DNA from: Bacteroidota bacterium
Lineage (GTDB): Bacteria; Bacteroidota; Bacteroidia; Flavobacteriales_E; Vicingaceae
Assembly: GCA_016183805.1 (NCBI GenBank)
Contig: JACPDX010000010.1
Location: forward strand, 1-64,000
Direction: 5' to 3'
Length of the DNA stretch: 64,000 nucleotides
Shown: piece after piece, positions 15,651 to 39,850 of the stretch
How positions within the stretch are numbered: position 1 is the first letter of the stretch
Layout: the number at the start of each line of letters is the position of its first letter
Notes under the pieces: generated by a model
Database searches by the model: none
What the model was told of the DNA's origin: nothing
The model's input: the letters and a program-made list of their open reading frames with translations, nothing else
Made by a program: the position numbers and the translations under genes

Positions 15651-15862
15651 AAGAACAGGGTTTATTTACCCTTATTTGACAAGCAAATACGGAGTAAATA
15701 TGTCAGCTATTAAAGAGCTGGGTAAAAGTAAACTCAAGAAGTTAACATTATTAATCTAGTGAAGGAATAAATGTTGGGACGGTTAGGTTGGTTGATTTAT
15801 TCAATTAAATTAAACCATAAATTTCAACATTAGAAGGCAGGAGAACATCCTGCCTTCTTAAA
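15651..15862 (+). ncRNA. Structured leader RNA or small RNA before mla operon
   Basis: Three structural modules are visible by complementarity. Module 1: TTTACCC (15665-15671)/GGGTAAA (15720-15726) closes an inner TGACA (15677-15681)/TGTCA (15701-15705) stem and an AGCT (15705-15708)/AGCT (15716-15719) hairpin. An alternative hairpin, AGGGT (15657-15661)/ACCCT (15668-15672), uses the same ACCC. Module 2: AATGTTG (15770-15776)/CAACATT (15825-15831). Module 3: a strong hairpin GAAGGCAGGA/TCCTGCCTTC (15833-15857) directly before mlaE. No known RNA family is recognised. A cis-acting switch or an independent small RNA are both possible. Confidence 0.45.
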
Positions 15863-15885: not shown

Positions 15886-16695
15886 ATGAGTAAAGTAGAG
15901 GGCAAATACAACGAGTTTACTACTTTACCTCTGTGGAACGAAACCAAAAAATTTTTAACCGAAACCGCAGATATCACCCTTTTTGGAGTCCGGTTTTTTA
16001 AAGAAGGATTAAAACTACCGCTTGAAATTAGTGAAACCATTAATCAATGTTATAAAATTGGTTACAAATCGCTGCCGTTAGTTGGTATTACTGCTTTTAT
16101 CATGGGGTTGGTATTTACCATCCAATCCCGACCAACGTTACAGGAATTTGGTGCAGAATCGTGGCTTCCGGCAATGGTTTCTGTTTCCATTGTTCGTGAA
16201 ATTGGGCCTGTAATTACTGCTTTAATTTGTGCCGGTAAAATTGGTTCGAGCATTGGTGCAGAACTGGGCTCTATGAAGGTAACCGAACAAATTGATGCCA
16301 TGGAGGTTTCCGGAACAAATCCCTTTAAATATTTGGTAGTTACCCGAATTGCCGCAACCACCTTAATGGTTCCGATATTATCGATATTGGCAAATGCCAT
16401 CGGAATTTACGGTTCCTACCTTGGCGTAAACATTAAAGGAGTAGTTAGCTTTCAACTTTTTTACAGTCAGGTGTTTGAAAAACTTATGTTTAGCGACGTT
16501 ATTCCTTCCATCACAAAAACATTTTTTTTTGGTTTTGCCATTGGCTTAATTGGTTGCTATAAAGGATATCATTCCGATAAAGGTACAGAAGGTGTTGGAA
16601 GATCGGCTAATTCAGCCGTAGTAATAGCCTCTTTGCTGGTATTTATTTTAGATTTAATTGCTGTTCAAATTACCGACCTTTTTTATGGATTATAA
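15886..16695 (+). CDS. mlaE: MlaE-type ABC transporter permease
   Basis: A 269-residue integral membrane protein of the MlaE/YrbE permease family. It moves phospholipids across the inner membrane in retrograde lipid trafficking between outer and inner membranes. The family core is clear: VSIVREIGPVITALICAGKIGSSIGAELGSM-type helix and EQIDAMEVSGTNPFKYLVV, with a final hydrophobic helix LLVFILDLIAVQITDLFYG. Its 3' end overlaps mlaF by 11 nt, so the two subunits are translationally linked. MlaF and MlaD follow in order. Confidence 0.93.
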   Translation: MSKVEGKYNEFTTLPLWNETKKFLTETADITLFGVRFFKEGLKLPLEISETINQCYKIGYKSLPLVGITAFIMGLVFTIQSRPTLQEFGAESWLPAMVSVSIVREIGPVITALICAGKIGSSIGAELGSMKVTEQIDAMEVSGTNPFKYLVVTRIAATTLMVPILSILANAIGIYGSYLGVNIKGVVSFQLFYSQVFEKLMFSDVIPSITKTFFFGFAIGLIGCYKGYHSDKGTEGVGRSANSAVVIASLLVFILDLIAVQITDLFYGL

Positions 16696-17470
16696 GGAGC
16701 AAATACAAGATACTGTTCAAAGCAATTTACACAAAAGTAAAGGTGTGCCGGTTATTGAAATTGTTAACCTCAAAAAATCGTTTGGAAATAATCATGTGTT
16801 GAATGGGTTTAACCTTACACTTTATGAAGGAGAAAATGTTGCTGTGCTTGGTAAATCTGGAAGCGGCAAATCGGTTTTGATAAAATGTATTGTGGGTTTG
16901 TTAAAGCAAGATTCAGGAGAAATACGTGCCTTTGGAAAAGATATTTTAAGCCTCAATCAGGCAGAATTAGATCAAATTAGAACCAAAATCGGCTTTTTGT
17001 TTCAAAGCAATGCATTGTACGATTCGATGACTGTGAGAGAAAACCTTGAATTTCCTTTACGAAGACTCAGTATTATTAAAACAAAAGATGAAGTAGATGA
17101 CATGATTCAGGAAGCTTTGGAAAATGTAGGTTTACCTGATACTGCCAACCTAATGCCTTCCGAACTTTCAGGAGGTATGCGAAAACGTATAGGTGTTGCA
17201 CGTACTTTAATTCTTAAACCAAGAGTTATTTTATACGACGAACCCACTACGGGATTAGACCCCATCACCGCTAAAGAAATAAGTACTTTAATGAATACCG
17301 TACATAAAAAATACAACACTTCTTCCATCATTATTTCGCACGACATGTCGTGTTTAAAAATTGTAGCCCAACGAATTGTGCTTTTAATGCAGGGAATAAA
17401 CTATGCCGAAGGCACATATGACGAACTCAAAAATTCGGACGATGAAAAAGTGAAGGAATTTTTTGAATAA
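16685..17470 (+). CDS. mlaF: MlaF-type ABC transporter ATP-binding protein
   Basis: A 261-residue ABC ATPase from the ATG at 16685; an earlier TTG-type start would lengthen the overlap with mlaE without benefit. Walker A is GKSGSGKS, the Q-loop is FLFQSNA, the signature is LSGGMRKR, Walker B is VILYDEP, and the H-loop is SHDMS. It energises the lipid transporter with MlaE and MlaD. The N-terminal extension DYKEQIQDTVQSNLHK is longer than in the proteobacterial homologue. It ends 7 nt before mlaD. Confidence 0.93.
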   Translation: MDYKEQIQDTVQSNLHKSKGVPVIEIVNLKKSFGNNHVLNGFNLTLYEGENVAVLGKSGSGKSVLIKCIVGLLKQDSGEIRAFGKDILSLNQAELDQIRTKIGFLFQSNALYDSMTVRENLEFPLRRLSIIKTKDEVDDMIQEALENVGLPDTANLMPSELSGGMRKRIGVARTLILKPRVILYDEPTTGLDPITAKEISTLMNTVHKKYNTSSIIISHDMSCLKIVAQRIVLLMQGINYAEGTYDELKNSDDEKVKEFFE

Positions 17471-17477
17471 TAGAGCC

Positions 17478-18449
17478 ATGGAAAAAGCCGGAAAAATAAA
17501 ATTAGGATTGTTTGTCATTTTAGGCACATTGTTTTTTGTTGCCTCTATGTATTTTATTGGCGACAAACAAAATCTTTTTGGTTCAACATTTAAAATTAAA
17601 GCCATTTTTAGCAATGTAAACGGGTTACAAAAAGGAAACAATATCCGGTTTTTAGGGATAGATGTAGGCACCGTGAATGAAATTGAAATACTAAACGACA
17701 CCTCCATTTTGGTTACCATGGTTATTAAAGAAGAAAGTAGAGCATTTATTAAAAAAAATTCGATTAGCACCATTGGAACTGACGGTTTAATGGGAAACAA
17801 GTTAGTGAATATTACTCCTAAAAATTTTTCTTCTCAAATAGTTAATGAAGGCGATACGTTGGCTACACTTTCTGAAATTATGACAGAAGACATGTTGCGT
17901 AGACTGGAACAAACCAACACAAACATTGCCATGATATCGAGCAATTTGGTTGATATTACTGATGAAATTCAGCATGGAAGAGGAACCATCGGTAAATTAA
18001 TTAAAGACTCCGCATTTGCTCTAAATATAGATATTACTATTGAAAACCTGAGAGATGCCAGCAAAAAATCTACTAATATTTTAGCAAGCATTGAAGACAA
18101 ATTAAAAGACATTAATCTTAAAAACGGTTCGGTTGGCTCCTTGCTGATGGATACTGTTTTTGCAGGAAATATTGAACAAATGGTAAAAGAAATGAAGGCA
18201 GCAAGTGAAAACACCAAAGAATGAACACAAGAATTAAAGGAAATGATTATTCAACTACGGGCAGGGCAAGGTGTTGCAGGGAGCATGGTTAACGATACCA
18301 CATTGGTAAACAATTTGGAAAAAAGTATGGATAATATTCAAAAAGGAACTGCGGCTTTTAATGAAAACATGGAAGCACTAAAACACAATTTTTTAGTTAG
18401 AGGATATTTTAAAAAACAAGAAAAATTGAAGAAAAAGAACAAAAATTAA
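17478..18449 (+). pseudogene. mlaD: MlaD/MCE-domain lipid-transport protein, interrupted by in-frame TGA
   Basis: The first 248 codons (17478-18221) encode an N-terminal membrane anchor (LGLFVILGTLFFVASMYFIG) and the MCE domain (FKIKAIFSNVNGLQKGNNI, RFLGIDVGTVNEI), then helical repeats. An in-frame TGA at 18222-18224 ends this reading. Directly after it, in the same frame, 74 more codons (18225-18446) encode the usual C-terminus of Bacteroidota MlaD: LRAGQGVAGSMVNDTTLVNN, then MEALKHNFLVRGYFKKQEK. Read through, the protein would be 323 residues, the normal family length. TGG to TGA (Trp) is the simplest change. A real nonsense mutation, a base error or stop readthrough are possible. A truncated protein might still anchor and bind lipid, because the MCE domain is intact. 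Confidence 0.85.
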
Positions 18450-18458
18450 ATAGATAAA

Positions 18459-18752
18459 ATGAACCGACTAAAATTAACCAACCTTATTTTTATTGTAATA
18501 CTCATTGTAATACTCATTGAAAACAACCTTAATGTCATGAATAAATTAAATCATAAAAAAGAATTAAATCAACAACCGGAAGAACCCACTTTTCCACCTA
18601 ACGAAGAGCCAACAAACCCTCCACCCAAAGAAAAACCGATAACCATCCCTCCCGATGTACCCTATTCACCCACACCGGAAGATCCTGAAATAATTCCTCC
18701 GGAAATTCCTGTAGGACCAAAATTAAATAAGAAAGTGTACAACAATAAGTGA
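18459..18752 (+). CDS. Small proline-rich membrane-anchored protein
   Basis: A 97-residue product starting MNRLKLTNLIFIVILIVILI, a single hydrophobic anchor. About 55 residues of Pro/Glu-rich sequence follow (PEEPTFPPNEEPTNPPPKEK and PDVPYSPTPEDP). It is probably an extracytoplasmic spacer-like peptide. It starts 9 nt after the mlaD reading frame ends, so it may belong to the mla operon. No family is recognised, and the low complexity makes it uncertain. Confidence 0.5.
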   Translation: MNRLKLTNLIFIVILIVILIENNLNVMNKLNHKKELNQQPEEPTFPPNEEPTNPPPKEKPITIPPDVPYSPTPEDPEIIPPEIPVGPKLNKKVYNNK

Positions 18753-18794
18753 GAATAAATTTTAAACAGTTGGTAACAATTATCATTAAAAATC

Positions 18795-18823
18795 AATAAC
18801 GGCTGTTTTTACTTGCCGTTATT
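18795..18823 (+). terminator. Hairpin after mla operon
   Basis: AATAACGGC (18795-18803) and GCCGTTATT (18815-18823) form a perfect 9-bp stem with an 11-nt loop. No T-run follows. It is a likely 3'-end stabilising or terminating hairpin for the mla transcript, just before the promoter of the putative small RNA. Confidence 0.5.
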
Positions 18824-18844
18824 CCATCCAATACATTTGTAACA

Positions 18845-18950
18845 TGTCTTTATCCGGGTAGTCATTCCAGCATAGAGATGCAAATCGCCAGAATATTTAA
18901 ACAGATCTCTGGCCGATTTGAAGGCGAGGTCGGCTCGCCTTCTTTTTTTT
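18845..18950 (+). ncRNA. Candidate intergenic small RNA of about 105 nt
   Basis: It has its own promoter signal: TACATTTG (18832-18839) matches TAnnTTTG, with TTGC at 18813-18816 as a possible -33. Two hairpins follow. CAAATCGCCAGA (18881-18892) pairs with TCTGGCCGATTTG (18908-18920) with one bulged G. GAAGGCGAG (18920-18928) pairs with CTCGCCTTC (18934-18942), followed by eight T, a textbook rho-independent terminator. No reading frame of note lies inside. The family is not recognised. The 5' end is inferred from the -7 box. Confidence 0.6.
18920..18950 (+). terminator. Rho-independent terminator
   Basis: A 9-bp GC-rich stem (GAAGGCGAG/CTCGCCTTC), GTCGG loop and T8 tract. It ends the candidate small RNA and isolates the next gene. 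Confidence 0.85.
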
Positions 18951-19083
18951 GTCATGGATTGATGATAAAAGTCACTGCTAACCAACAACTATAATCAGCC
19001 TTTCTATTGTGTTGTTGCAGTAATTTTATTAAAAATTTACTACCCTATAACATCATTTGTAAAACGTTTTTAATTATAGAATT
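18951..19083. other. Leader region of aromatic-rich secreted protein gene
   Basis: No gene is seen. A near-consensus -7 box (ATCATTTG, about 19051-19058) lies about 25 nt before the start codon at 19084, one mismatch from TAnnTTTG. Confidence 0.3.
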
Positions 19084-20691
19084 ATGTTTAGAAATAAAAT
19101 CACCTCTCTTTTAATGATTTTAACTACACTTGTTTTAGGAGGGGTTCAGCTAAAAACCGAATTGTCAAATGGTATTTTACAAGGTTTGTCAGAAGATGAA
19201 CACAAGGCTGTCGAAGCCATTGCTTTATATCCTGAAAAAGAACGAAATATCATTCTCGAAGCAGCTTTATACCCTGAAGTGCTGGTACGCATGCAAAACA
19301 TTAGAAAAAATACAGAAGAAAAGTTTAAATTATTACTCGAAAATCTACCCGACGAAGATCAAAAAAAACTATTCAACCTCTCCAGATACCCCGATTTAAT
19401 CGAAAAAATAGAAGGGAAAAAAAAGTCTAAAGATGAACTTAAGAACCTGATTATAGGTTACCCAAAAGAAATACAAGAACAAGCTGTTTTTGCTAACCAA
19501 CAATACTATACACTGTTAACCAATATGAATACACTTTACAGCAACTCGGAGCTGGCATTTGAAACCATTTTAAAAAATTATGCTTTATCCACACAACAAG
19601 CTTACAAAGAACTGGTAAAATTACCCGAAGTAGTAACCATTTTAGCAGAAAACATGAGTGCAACAGTTCTTTTAGGCGATTTGTATAAAAAAAATCCTGT
19701 TGAACTAAAAAAAGAGTTAAACTCACTTCATATAGCTGCTGCAGAACAAAAAACCAAAGAGTTGAACGAATGGAAACAAAATCTGGAAGATAACCCCGAA
19801 GCCATGGCAGAATATGAACAAGCTGCAAAAGAATTTGCCACAGGGCAAGGAGTTAATGAATCGGATTACACCACATACGTACCTGAAGAAAAGAAGTCAG
19901 AAGTAGAAATCCGTTATATTTACCAACCTTACCCTTATTGGTTTGGCTGGCCATGGTGGTATCATTACGAGTATTGGTATCCTTACCCCTATTGGTATCA
20001 TTGGGGATATTATTACAGTTCGCCAAATGTAATTGTGTTTATTGGTTTACCTTCTAATTACTATATGAATTGGCATTTCCATCATCACGACCATTTTTAT
20101 CATTATCCACACTTTACTAATCATGTGATAAATTATTACTACGGGCATCGAAAATCGAGAAGCAGCATTACCACCGTTGTAAGCAACTGGGAAAAAGAAA
20201 TTAGACCCGAAGTGCCAAAAAACTTTTTTGAGAATGATAATAGTCGGGTTGATCGAATTAAAGAGTATGGGAAATTTAAAATGGATTATCAATCCACTGT
20301 TCAAAAAGCCAATGGAAAGGTACCTAATCAAATGGACTATCTTAAAAACAATGCCAATAAATACCCTACGCTCAAACCTGTTTTAAATGAAAAATCGATA
20401 ATTAAACCTCAACCCACAGTAAAAGAAAAAAAAACAAAAATAGAAGAGTACTATAGTCCAAAATATGAACCCAAAGAAAAAACAATAATCAAGAAACCCT
20501 CAACTTATCAGGAAATTGACCAGGCAAAAAACTACCATCAAAATACTTGGGAAAAACCAATACCAAGATACCAAACAGCACCAACACCAACCCCACCAAA
20601 GCAAGTTATACCAAAACAAATTGTACCACGGCAACCAACTCCTGCACAAAAAAAACCACAACCAATAACACCTCAACGTAAAAAAAAATAA
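19084..20691 (+). CDS. Secreted Tyr/Trp/His-rich protein (DUF3300-like)
   Basis: A 535-residue protein with a hydrophobic N-terminus (LLMILTTLVLGGVQ) typical of a signal peptide. Residues about 35-260 are helical and contain repeated AxYPE or RYPD elements (AIALYPEK, AALYPEVL, LSRYPD), as in DUF3300-type proteins. Residues about 275-365 are extremely rich in Tyr, Trp, His and Pro (for example PYPYWYHWGYYYSS, HFHHHDHFYHYPHF). The tail is Pro/Lys/Thr-rich and repetitive (PTPTPPKQVIPKQ). Periplasmic or surface location is likely; the His clusters suggest possible metal binding. Function unknown. It is followed 4 nt later by the hydrolase gene. Confidence 0.75.
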   Translation: MFRNKITSLLMILTTLVLGGVQLKTELSNGILQGLSEDEHKAVEAIALYPEKERNIILEAALYPEVLVRMQNIRKNTEEKFKLLLENLPDEDQKKLFNLSRYPDLIEKIEGKKKSKDELKNLIIGYPKEIQEQAVFANQQYYTLLTNMNTLYSNSELAFETILKNYALSTQQAYKELVKLPEVVTILAENMSATVLLGDLYKKNPVELKKELNSLHIAAAEQKTKELNEWKQNLEDNPEAMAEYEQAAKEFATGQGVNESDYTTYVPEEKKSEVEIRYIYQPYPYWFGWPWWYHYEYWYPYPYWYHWGYYYSSPNVIVFIGLPSNYYMNWHFHHHDHFYHYPHFTNHVINYYYGHRKSRSSITTVVSNWEKEIRPEVPKNFFENDNSRVDRIKEYGKFKMDYQSTVQKANGKVPNQMDYLKNNANKYPTLKPVLNEKSIIKPQPTVKEKKTKIEEYYSPKYEPKEKTIIKKPSTYQEIDQAKNYHQNTWEKPIPRYQTAPTPTPPKQVIPKQIVPRQPTPAQKKPQPITPQRKKK

Positions 20692-35756: not shown

Positions 35757-35793
35757 CTCAATTCTTTGCTTACAAATATAAACAAACAAGTTA

Positions 35794-35858
35794 GAAGTCG
35801 GAAGACCGAAGTCGGAAGTTAATAAGAGTAAAACTTCAATCTTCGGTCTTCCGACTTC
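35794..35858. repeat. Intergenic inverted repeat, family B copy 2
   Basis: The arm at 35794-35811 (GAAGTCGGAAGACCGAAG) pairs perfectly over 18 bp with 35841-35858, with a 29-nt loop. It lies between the dehydrogenase gene (upstream) and the LptF/G gene (downstream) on the minus strand. It shares its units with 34264-34304. Confidence 0.85.
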
Positions 35859-35862
35859 CGTC

Positions 35863-36750
35863 TTATTTAAACTGACTTGATACAACTAAATCTTTCGTGC
35901 CATGGTTCCACGAATAAAAACCTTCGCCTGATTTAACACCCATTTTACCGGCAGTAACCATATTTACCAATAAAGGACAAGGAGCATATTTTGGATTTCC
36001 AAATCCATCATGCAAAACATTTAAAATGGATAAACAAACATCTAAACCAATAAAATCTGCCAACTGTAAAGGTCCCATAGGGTGAGCCATTCCAAGCTTC
36101 ATAACAGTATCTATTTCATCCACACCAGCTACACCTTCATAAAGTGTTATAATGGCTTCATTTATCATGGGCATTAAAATTCTGTTGGCAACAAAACCCG
36201 GATAATCATTTACCTCAACCGGAACTTTTCCTAATTTTTTTGAAAGTTCCATAATGGTAGTTGTTACCTCATTAGAAGTGGAATATCCTCTAATAATCTC
36301 TACCAATTTCATCATCGGAACCGGATTCATAAAATGCATTCCAATAACCTTATCAGGTCTTTTGGTAACCGATGCTATTTTTGTAATAGAAATAGATGAT
36401 GTATTTGATGCTAAAATTACCGACTCGTCAGTTACTTCATCTAAATTTTTAAAAATTTTAAGTTTTAAGTCAATGTTTTCGGTAGCGGCTTCAACCACCA
36501 ATTGAACTCCTTTTACACCTTCTTTTAAATCTGTAAATGTTGAAATATTACTTAAAGTGTGTGATTTGTCACCTTCAGAAATCTTCTCTTTGGTAACCAT
36601 TCTATCTAAATTTTTAGTAATAGTAGATATGGCTTTTTCTAAAGCCGGTTGAGAAACATCAATTAAATTTACTTTAAACCCACTTTGTGCAAAAGTATGA
36701 GCAATACCATTACCCATTGTTCCTGCTCCTATTACTGCAATGTTTTTCAT
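35863..36750 (-). CDS. hbd: 3-hydroxybutyryl-CoA (3-hydroxyacyl-CoA) dehydrogenase
   Basis: A 295-residue NAD-dependent enzyme oxidising (S)-3-hydroxyacyl-CoA. The N-terminal Rossmann motif is GAGTMGNGIAH. The catalytic region GMHFMNPVPMMKLVEII, followed by GFVANRILMPMINEA, and the C-terminal domain (MGPLQLADFIGLD, GKMGVKSGEGFYSW) are all complete. Stereochemistry makes it part of beta-oxidation or butyrate-type metabolism rather than PHA synthesis by PhaB. It stands before the LptF/G gene, separated by the family B hairpin. Confidence 0.93.
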   Translation of the reverse strand: MKNIAVIGAGTMGNGIAHTFAQSGFKVNLIDVSQPALEKAISTITKNLDRMVTKEKISEGDKSHTLSNISTFTDLKEGVKGVQLVVEAATENIDLKLKIFKNLDEVTDESVILASNTSSISITKIASVTKRPDKVIGMHFMNPVPMMKLVEIIRGYSTSNEVTTTIMELSKKLGKVPVEVNDYPGFVANRILMPMINEAIITLYEGVAGVDEIDTVMKLGMAHPMGPLQLADFIGLDVCLSILNVLHDGFGNPKYAPCPLLVNMVTAGKMGVKSGEGFYSWNHGTKDLVVSSQFK

Positions 36751-39771: not shown

Positions 39772-39800
39772 TAAAAAGTATTCTTATTTAACAATTTTCT

Positions 39801-39850
39801 AGTTTCTAGTTTAGGGTTTACTGAAAACTCTAAACTCTAAACTAGAAACT
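39801..39850. repeat. Intergenic inverted repeat, family A copy 2
   Basis: AGTTTCTAGTTTAGGGTTT (39801-39819) pairs with 39832-39850 over 19 bp with one G-U pair and a 12-nt loop. It lies between phoH and the STAS gene. It shares the GTTTAGAGTTT core with the copy at 29861-29914. Confidence 0.85.

Follow-up and report, generated by a model that had tools for sequence, protein, structure and literature searches.

What occupies the space behind the mla genes of this bacterium? In the window, by which we mean the whole 64,000-nt stretch of contig JACPDX010000010.1 analysed here, mlaE, mlaF and mlaD (15886-18224), to which MlaE, ABC and MlaD domains were assigned, precede a 97-codon open reading frame (ORF) that ends at 18752. 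The gap that follows (18753-19083), put at 330 nt without a protein gene in the original prediction, measures 331 nt between ORFs, lies in A+T-rich surroundings (33% G+C), and holds a -7 box, two hairpins and a terminator; the box begins 79 nt after the end of the 97-codon ORF, very nearly the 80 nt that had been predicted. Downstream, on the same strand as the predicted RNA, a 535-aa ORF starts at 19084. It had no match in Pfam, and a DUF3300-like name, suggested by its general look, was therefore dropped; a search of genome_contigs gave no relatives of its protein. The mla operon is patchy in its distribution among relatives, and neither a close MlaD nor a match to the 535-aa protein turned up in the other three genomes of its genus, which indicates that the locus is not common to them.

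The operon itself shows two further features. Within mlaD, an in-frame TGA (18222-18224) occurs after 253 codons and is followed by 74 further codons of the same frame, whose translation is similar to the C-terminal region of MlaD at loci L007 and L008; mlaD is either a broken gene or the product of an assembly error. Just 5′ of mlaE, about 26 nt ahead of its start codon, lies a strongly structured element (15770-15862, + strand; fold z -5.75) without a good T-run, in which a long hairpin, AAUGUUG..CAACAUU, is stacked on GAAGGCAGG..CCTGCCTTC. Because this is a second GAAGGC..GCCTTC hairpin, the mla operon has one on each flank.

The consensus -7 box named in the original prediction can be read at 18832-18839 on the + strand as an exact match (TACATTTG) to the Bacteroidota sigma-A motif TAnnTTTG. 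A TTG that may serve as the -33 element lies at 18813-18815 (+), with a 16-nt spacer to the box, slightly short compared with the consensus spacing. For Flavobacterium psychrophilum, the available part of the published report places the sigma-A box TAnnTTTG at -12 to -5 (PMC9723704). By this spacing, the transcription start at this locus would fall at about 18844, and the predicted small RNA, whose end was taken from the T-run, would span 18844-18950 (+), or about 107 nt. Upstream, a perfect inverted repeat with arms of 9 and a spacer of 11 (18795-18823) lies at -49 to -21 relative to the predicted start, and the RNA fold of its region (18785-18830) has a z of -4.61. Perfect repeats of this form occur at four places in the window, with nine hits in all, and no good second copy of this one was found in 341 kb of the genome. 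It is possibly an operator for a dimeric regulator, or else a 3′-terminal hairpin of the upstream mRNA. The inverted repeat thus accounts for the hairpin that had been described between the upstream ORF and the promoter, but no T-run follows it on the + strand and it is not an intrinsic terminator.

Within the predicted RNA, hairpin 1 (18846-18879, +; z -1.91 alone) bears the loop UAGUCAU, and hairpin 2 (18882-18919, +; z -3.31 alone) has 11 pairs, one bulge and an A+U-rich apical part, for which the earlier description of a 12-bp hairpin is fair. Adjoining hairpin 2, the intrinsic terminator (18920-18950, +) consists of the stem-loop GAAGGCGAG-GTCGG-CTCGCCTTC at 18920-18942, with nine pairs, six of them G-C, and the loop GUCGG, followed by eight T at 18943-18950; here the GC-rich terminator with eight T was recovered just as predicted. 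It formed in the computed folds, including those of the RNA lengthened stepwise, and its pair probabilities were 0.62 for the outermost pair and 0.92-1.0 for the other eight. The -7 box and the terminator end are 110 nt apart. In the model the RNA is paired from its third nucleotide and is compact, and its G+C content of 44%, against a window mean of 33%, lies at the 97th percentile. As in a canonical intergenic sRNA, coding sequence is absent: no open frame ends inside the predicted RNA, and Pfam gave no match above cut-off for the frames over it. A small protein is unlikely, because the 38-codon frame that starts at 18878 stops only past the terminator.

How far does this anatomy exceed chance? 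The fold of 18845-18950 (-36.6 kcal/mol) has a z of -3.81, with 0 of 200 shuffles as good, and by composition-corrected folding energy it ranks 17th of the 5113 stretches of 106 nt on both strands of the window; among those with a higher rank are an overlapping fragment of the RNA itself, the tRNA-Pro region and large palindromes. Much of this support is carried by the terminator, and without it the support is modest: the 76 nt ahead of the terminator have a z of -2.08, with 8 of 200 shuffles as good. Other structured elements were seen in passing. The best-folding stretch of the window is a large near-perfect palindrome at an ORF edge (35793-35863), an intergenic inverted repeat with arms around TCTAGTTTCTAGTTTAG lies at 39797-39850, and in L189 (11815-12010, - strand) two short, closely spaced palindromes of the form cgtcatggc..gccat, perhaps a dispersed intergenic repeat, stand behind a 743-codon ORF.

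Strong terminators are commoner in the window than chance would give, with four calls at three places, compared with 0.4 per random sequence in 15 sequences of the window's dinucleotide make-up. Two of the places lie behind tRNA genes and the third is that of the predicted RNA. The notion that strong terminators mark stable RNAs only is true in the window but false in a larger genome sample of 341 kb (the window and 20 further stretches, terminators near stretch ends being left out), where most of the 29 strong terminators lie behind protein genes, and it was dropped. An exact box 90-125 nt ahead of a strong terminator occurs with one of these 29, at this locus, and about 0.8 such pairs would be expected by chance, given that each strand carries 0.77 boxes per kb; among 120 control loci taken from other genomes, the pair was found in 1 of 36. 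The promoter region offers an exact TAnnTTTG and a TTG at a spacer of 16, but the combination of box and terminator is at chance level genome-wide and does not by itself prove a gene. The case is the sum of the box, the terminator, the folding, the composition and the lack of a fitting frame.

These numbers bear directly on the main rival explanation, namely that the box is fortuitous and the structure is the 3′ tail of the mla operon mRNA, which would run through the hairpin at 18795-18823 to the terminator at 18950; in a variant of this explanation, a stable RNA might be cut from the mla 3′ end. Since the upstream hairpin lacks a T-run, no intrinsic terminator for the operon is evident ahead of the one at 18950, and both the chance expectation for the pair and the many strong terminators that end mRNAs in this genome agree with such a tail. 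However, 13 listed terminators start 4-41 nt after a stop codon and this one starts 168 nt after the 97-codon ORF, although a few others on the list are similarly distant (161, 177 and 232 nt), and the stretch from box to terminator is structured and G+C-rich. On balance we consider an mla tail unlikely, though a competitor to be taken seriously. The earlier claim that the element is more than a 3′ end thus retains its own box and its structured stretch, but the upstream hairpin no longer secures it, because an mla transcript could reach the same terminator.

The terminator ends 134 nt ahead of the start codon of the 535-aa gene, on the same strand, an arrangement that would also suit a leader with a conditional terminator (an attenuator or a riboswitch) for the gene at 19084. 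A GGCCGA-UCGGCU pairing able to break the terminator exists in principle, but an alternative fold was looked for computationally and not found. Eight of the nine terminator pairs have the near-maximal probabilities given above, a penalty on the terminator register raises the folding energy by 8.2 kcal/mol and produces a displaced hairpin rather than an antiterminator, and stepwise folds of the growing transcript never favour a competitor. This stability of the terminator, together with the lack of an antiterminator, makes an attenuator unlikely; in addition, at 19021 the downstream gene is preceded by its own box, one mismatch away from the consensus, and no Rfam riboswitch matched. We therefore regard a leader as very improbable.

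We also considered a known RNA in disguise, either 6S RNA or a stray tracrRNA, since its length and independence would fit. 6S-Flavo (RF01685) is, like the window RNA, an independent Bacteroidota RNA, of about 108 nt; the window RNA, in contrast, did not match its model and did not reach its gathering cut-off of 85 bits. The model exceeded this cut-off in 0 of 39 genomes, with the best sub-threshold place of the own genome on contig C74, so that the 6S RNA of the own family is possibly poorly covered by it. At gathering score, Rfam found two tRNAs only in the window, and at E up to 10 nothing credible. The tracrRNA idea derives from R1, a covariance model built on the single window RNA sequence, which gave a weak in-family match to an RNA adjoining cas9 in genome G007, with a nearly identical terminator. 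The type II CRISPR locus of G007 (L067 1501-1603, L219 6803-6905) comprises cas9 and an array whose period is 66 nt, with the likely tracrRNA just upstream of cas9 on the opposite strand. This likeness lies mainly in the terminator, however, and there are no CRISPR-like repeats within the window. Moreover, the RuvC_III Pfam model, verified by hmmscan through its match to the G007 Cas9 at 2.9e-58, had no match in the own genome (96% complete), and none either in 14 control genomes. A tracrRNA identity is thus disfavoured, and a known RNA of either kind is extremely unlikely.

Does the RNA have relatives? BLAST in 60 relatives, in 46 genomes of the same order, which all fall in one family, and in 395 genomes of the same class returned only the RNA itself and fragments of 15-46 nt; the 395-genome search scored two candidates per genome, at which depth weak homologues could be missed. 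A repeated element was rejected, because the genome holds no second copy of the RNA and the 341-kb sample no good second copy of the inverted repeat. A plasmid search gave no match, and a phage search gave one 24-nt match, judged to be chance. The covariance search for homologues between mla and other genes in relatives, proposed along with the original prediction, came back empty, and L224-L229, six mla loci from other genomes, scored at most 12.7 bits with R1 at full sensitivity. Pattern scans found one place in genome_contigs, within a Burkholderiaceae gene, and 72 places in viral contigs, and the full model matched none of the 73 at better than E 1. In the genomes searched, then, no homologue displayed covariation or conservation. 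The missing conservation across the 46 order-level and 395 class-level genomes is what a chance structure without function would produce, but a strong terminator, an exact box and a z of -3.8 coincide in one short gap, and we think such a structure scarcely likely. Orphan status is in any case usual and no argument against an sRNA, given that 27 of the 49 high-confidence intergenic sRNAs of Bacteroides thetaiotaomicron are strain-specific according to the available text of the study (PMC7366714).

At E <= 0.1, R1 matched four of the 395 class genomes: the own genome, G089 (31.8 bits, E 9.1e-4), G218 (27.2 bits) and G078 (23.5 bits). An E of 9.1e-4 over 395 genomes means that 0.36 such match is expected by chance. 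The matches in G007, G065, G026 and G078 were dropped: one is a terminator like that of a tracrRNA, two are ordinary terminators, and one overlaps a coding ORF. The best matches outside the own genome, L161 in G089 and L162 in G218 (the latter upstream of ftsH), both belong to genus g60. They are stand-alone RNAs (L161 1502-1619, -; L162 1501-1613, +) that share GTTGAA..CAAYCGGAAGG..GACGA..CCTTC, match each other at 43.9 bits (E 1.2e-10), fold strongly (z -3.7, and -4.5 to -4.9) and had no match in an Rfam search. The g60 RNA is present in two of the 11 genomes of its family, a third match (L166) resembling a plain terminator, and it is possibly an undescribed sRNA family of that genus.

Like the window RNA, L161 and L162 have a TAnnTTTG box at a fitting distance, a length of about 100-106 nt, two hairpins and a GAAGG...CCTTC terminator with a 5-nt loop. 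However, in the reverse search with R2, a model built from L162, the window RNA scored 25.6 bits, which is within the range of ordinary terminators and not clearly above it; unrelated places reached 29.8, 25.3 and 25.3 bits. R2 matched 24 of the 395 genomes at E <= 0.1, among them the own genome, G089 and G218, and the matches in the other 21 were rejected because they resemble gene-tail terminators or coding stretches, judged by eye with the flanks printed where a T-run was near. These 21 matches show how large a share of the score the GAAGGC..GCCTTC terminator alone contributes. Joint alignments of the window RNA, L161 and L162 misplaced the hairpins of L162 and were set aside as a basis for a third model. 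Because the window RNA stands at the score of a plain terminator in the reverse search, we treat L161 and L162 as look-alikes and not as demonstrated homologues. That all three are far-apart members of one scattered, fast-changing Bacteroidota sRNA family, which would keep its layout (box, hairpin, and hairpin stacked on a GAAGG-G.CG.-CCTTC terminator) while sequence and place change, seems to us doubtful.

We consider the best explanation of the locus to be an orphan intergenic small RNA gene, a prediction that is probable though far from secure. A stand-alone sRNA with promoter and terminator, as originally proposed, is the best reading of the anatomy now that the attenuator and the small protein have been weakened, but read-through from mla stays a rival. 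In such a gene, RNA polymerase with the housekeeping sigma factor would start at about 18844 from the TAnnTTTG box, and the RNA would fold into two hairpins stacked on the strong intrinsic terminator and end at about 18950. The repeat at 18795-18823 (-49 to -21) may bind a dimeric regulator, perhaps controlling transcription. The stacked hairpins might protect the RNA and so render it stable, and the loops (UAGUCAU, the A+U-rich one and GUCGG) would be exposed and could pair with mRNAs. The predicted RNA therefore probably acts in trans by base-pairing, as GibS does in Bacteroides and as Rfp18 is thought to do in Flavobacterium. Its exact complements in 341 kb, surveyed with no control set, extend to 12 nt and none stands out, and we propose no target.

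The kind of element is ordinary, one more intergenic sRNA candidate, and by itself it alters no general picture. If transcribed, it would be one more lineage-specific sRNA in a phylum with few known sRNA targets. Because it lies directly behind the patchy mla operon, it could be an accessory regulator that arrived with the region; a literature search combining mlaE, sRNA and Bacteroidota found no paper.

Compared with known systems, the layout of the window RNA is familiar. In B. thetaiotaomicron, 9 of 11 tested intergenic sRNA candidates appeared on Northern blots, and eight of those nine have both a start site and an intrinsic terminator, as far as the available portion of the study describes them (PMC7366714). 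GibS (BTnc035) and other intergenic sRNAs of that species have, like the window RNA, a promoter of their own, hairpins and an intrinsic terminator (PMC7366714). By the same partial account, GibS is 145 nt long, has a non-canonical promoter, uses a mainly single-stranded 5′ part (1-38) as its seed and shows conservation within its genus (PMC7366714), whereas the window RNA is compact and no homologue of it was found; the two are set apart here by the description of GibS and not by sequence. Rfp18 of F. psychrophilum, compared likewise by description, differs in being conserved in its genus and in having a tested effect on protease mRNAs; it resembles the window RNA as an independent, structured Bacteroidota sRNA, with at least three stem-loops in the accessible text (PMC9723704).
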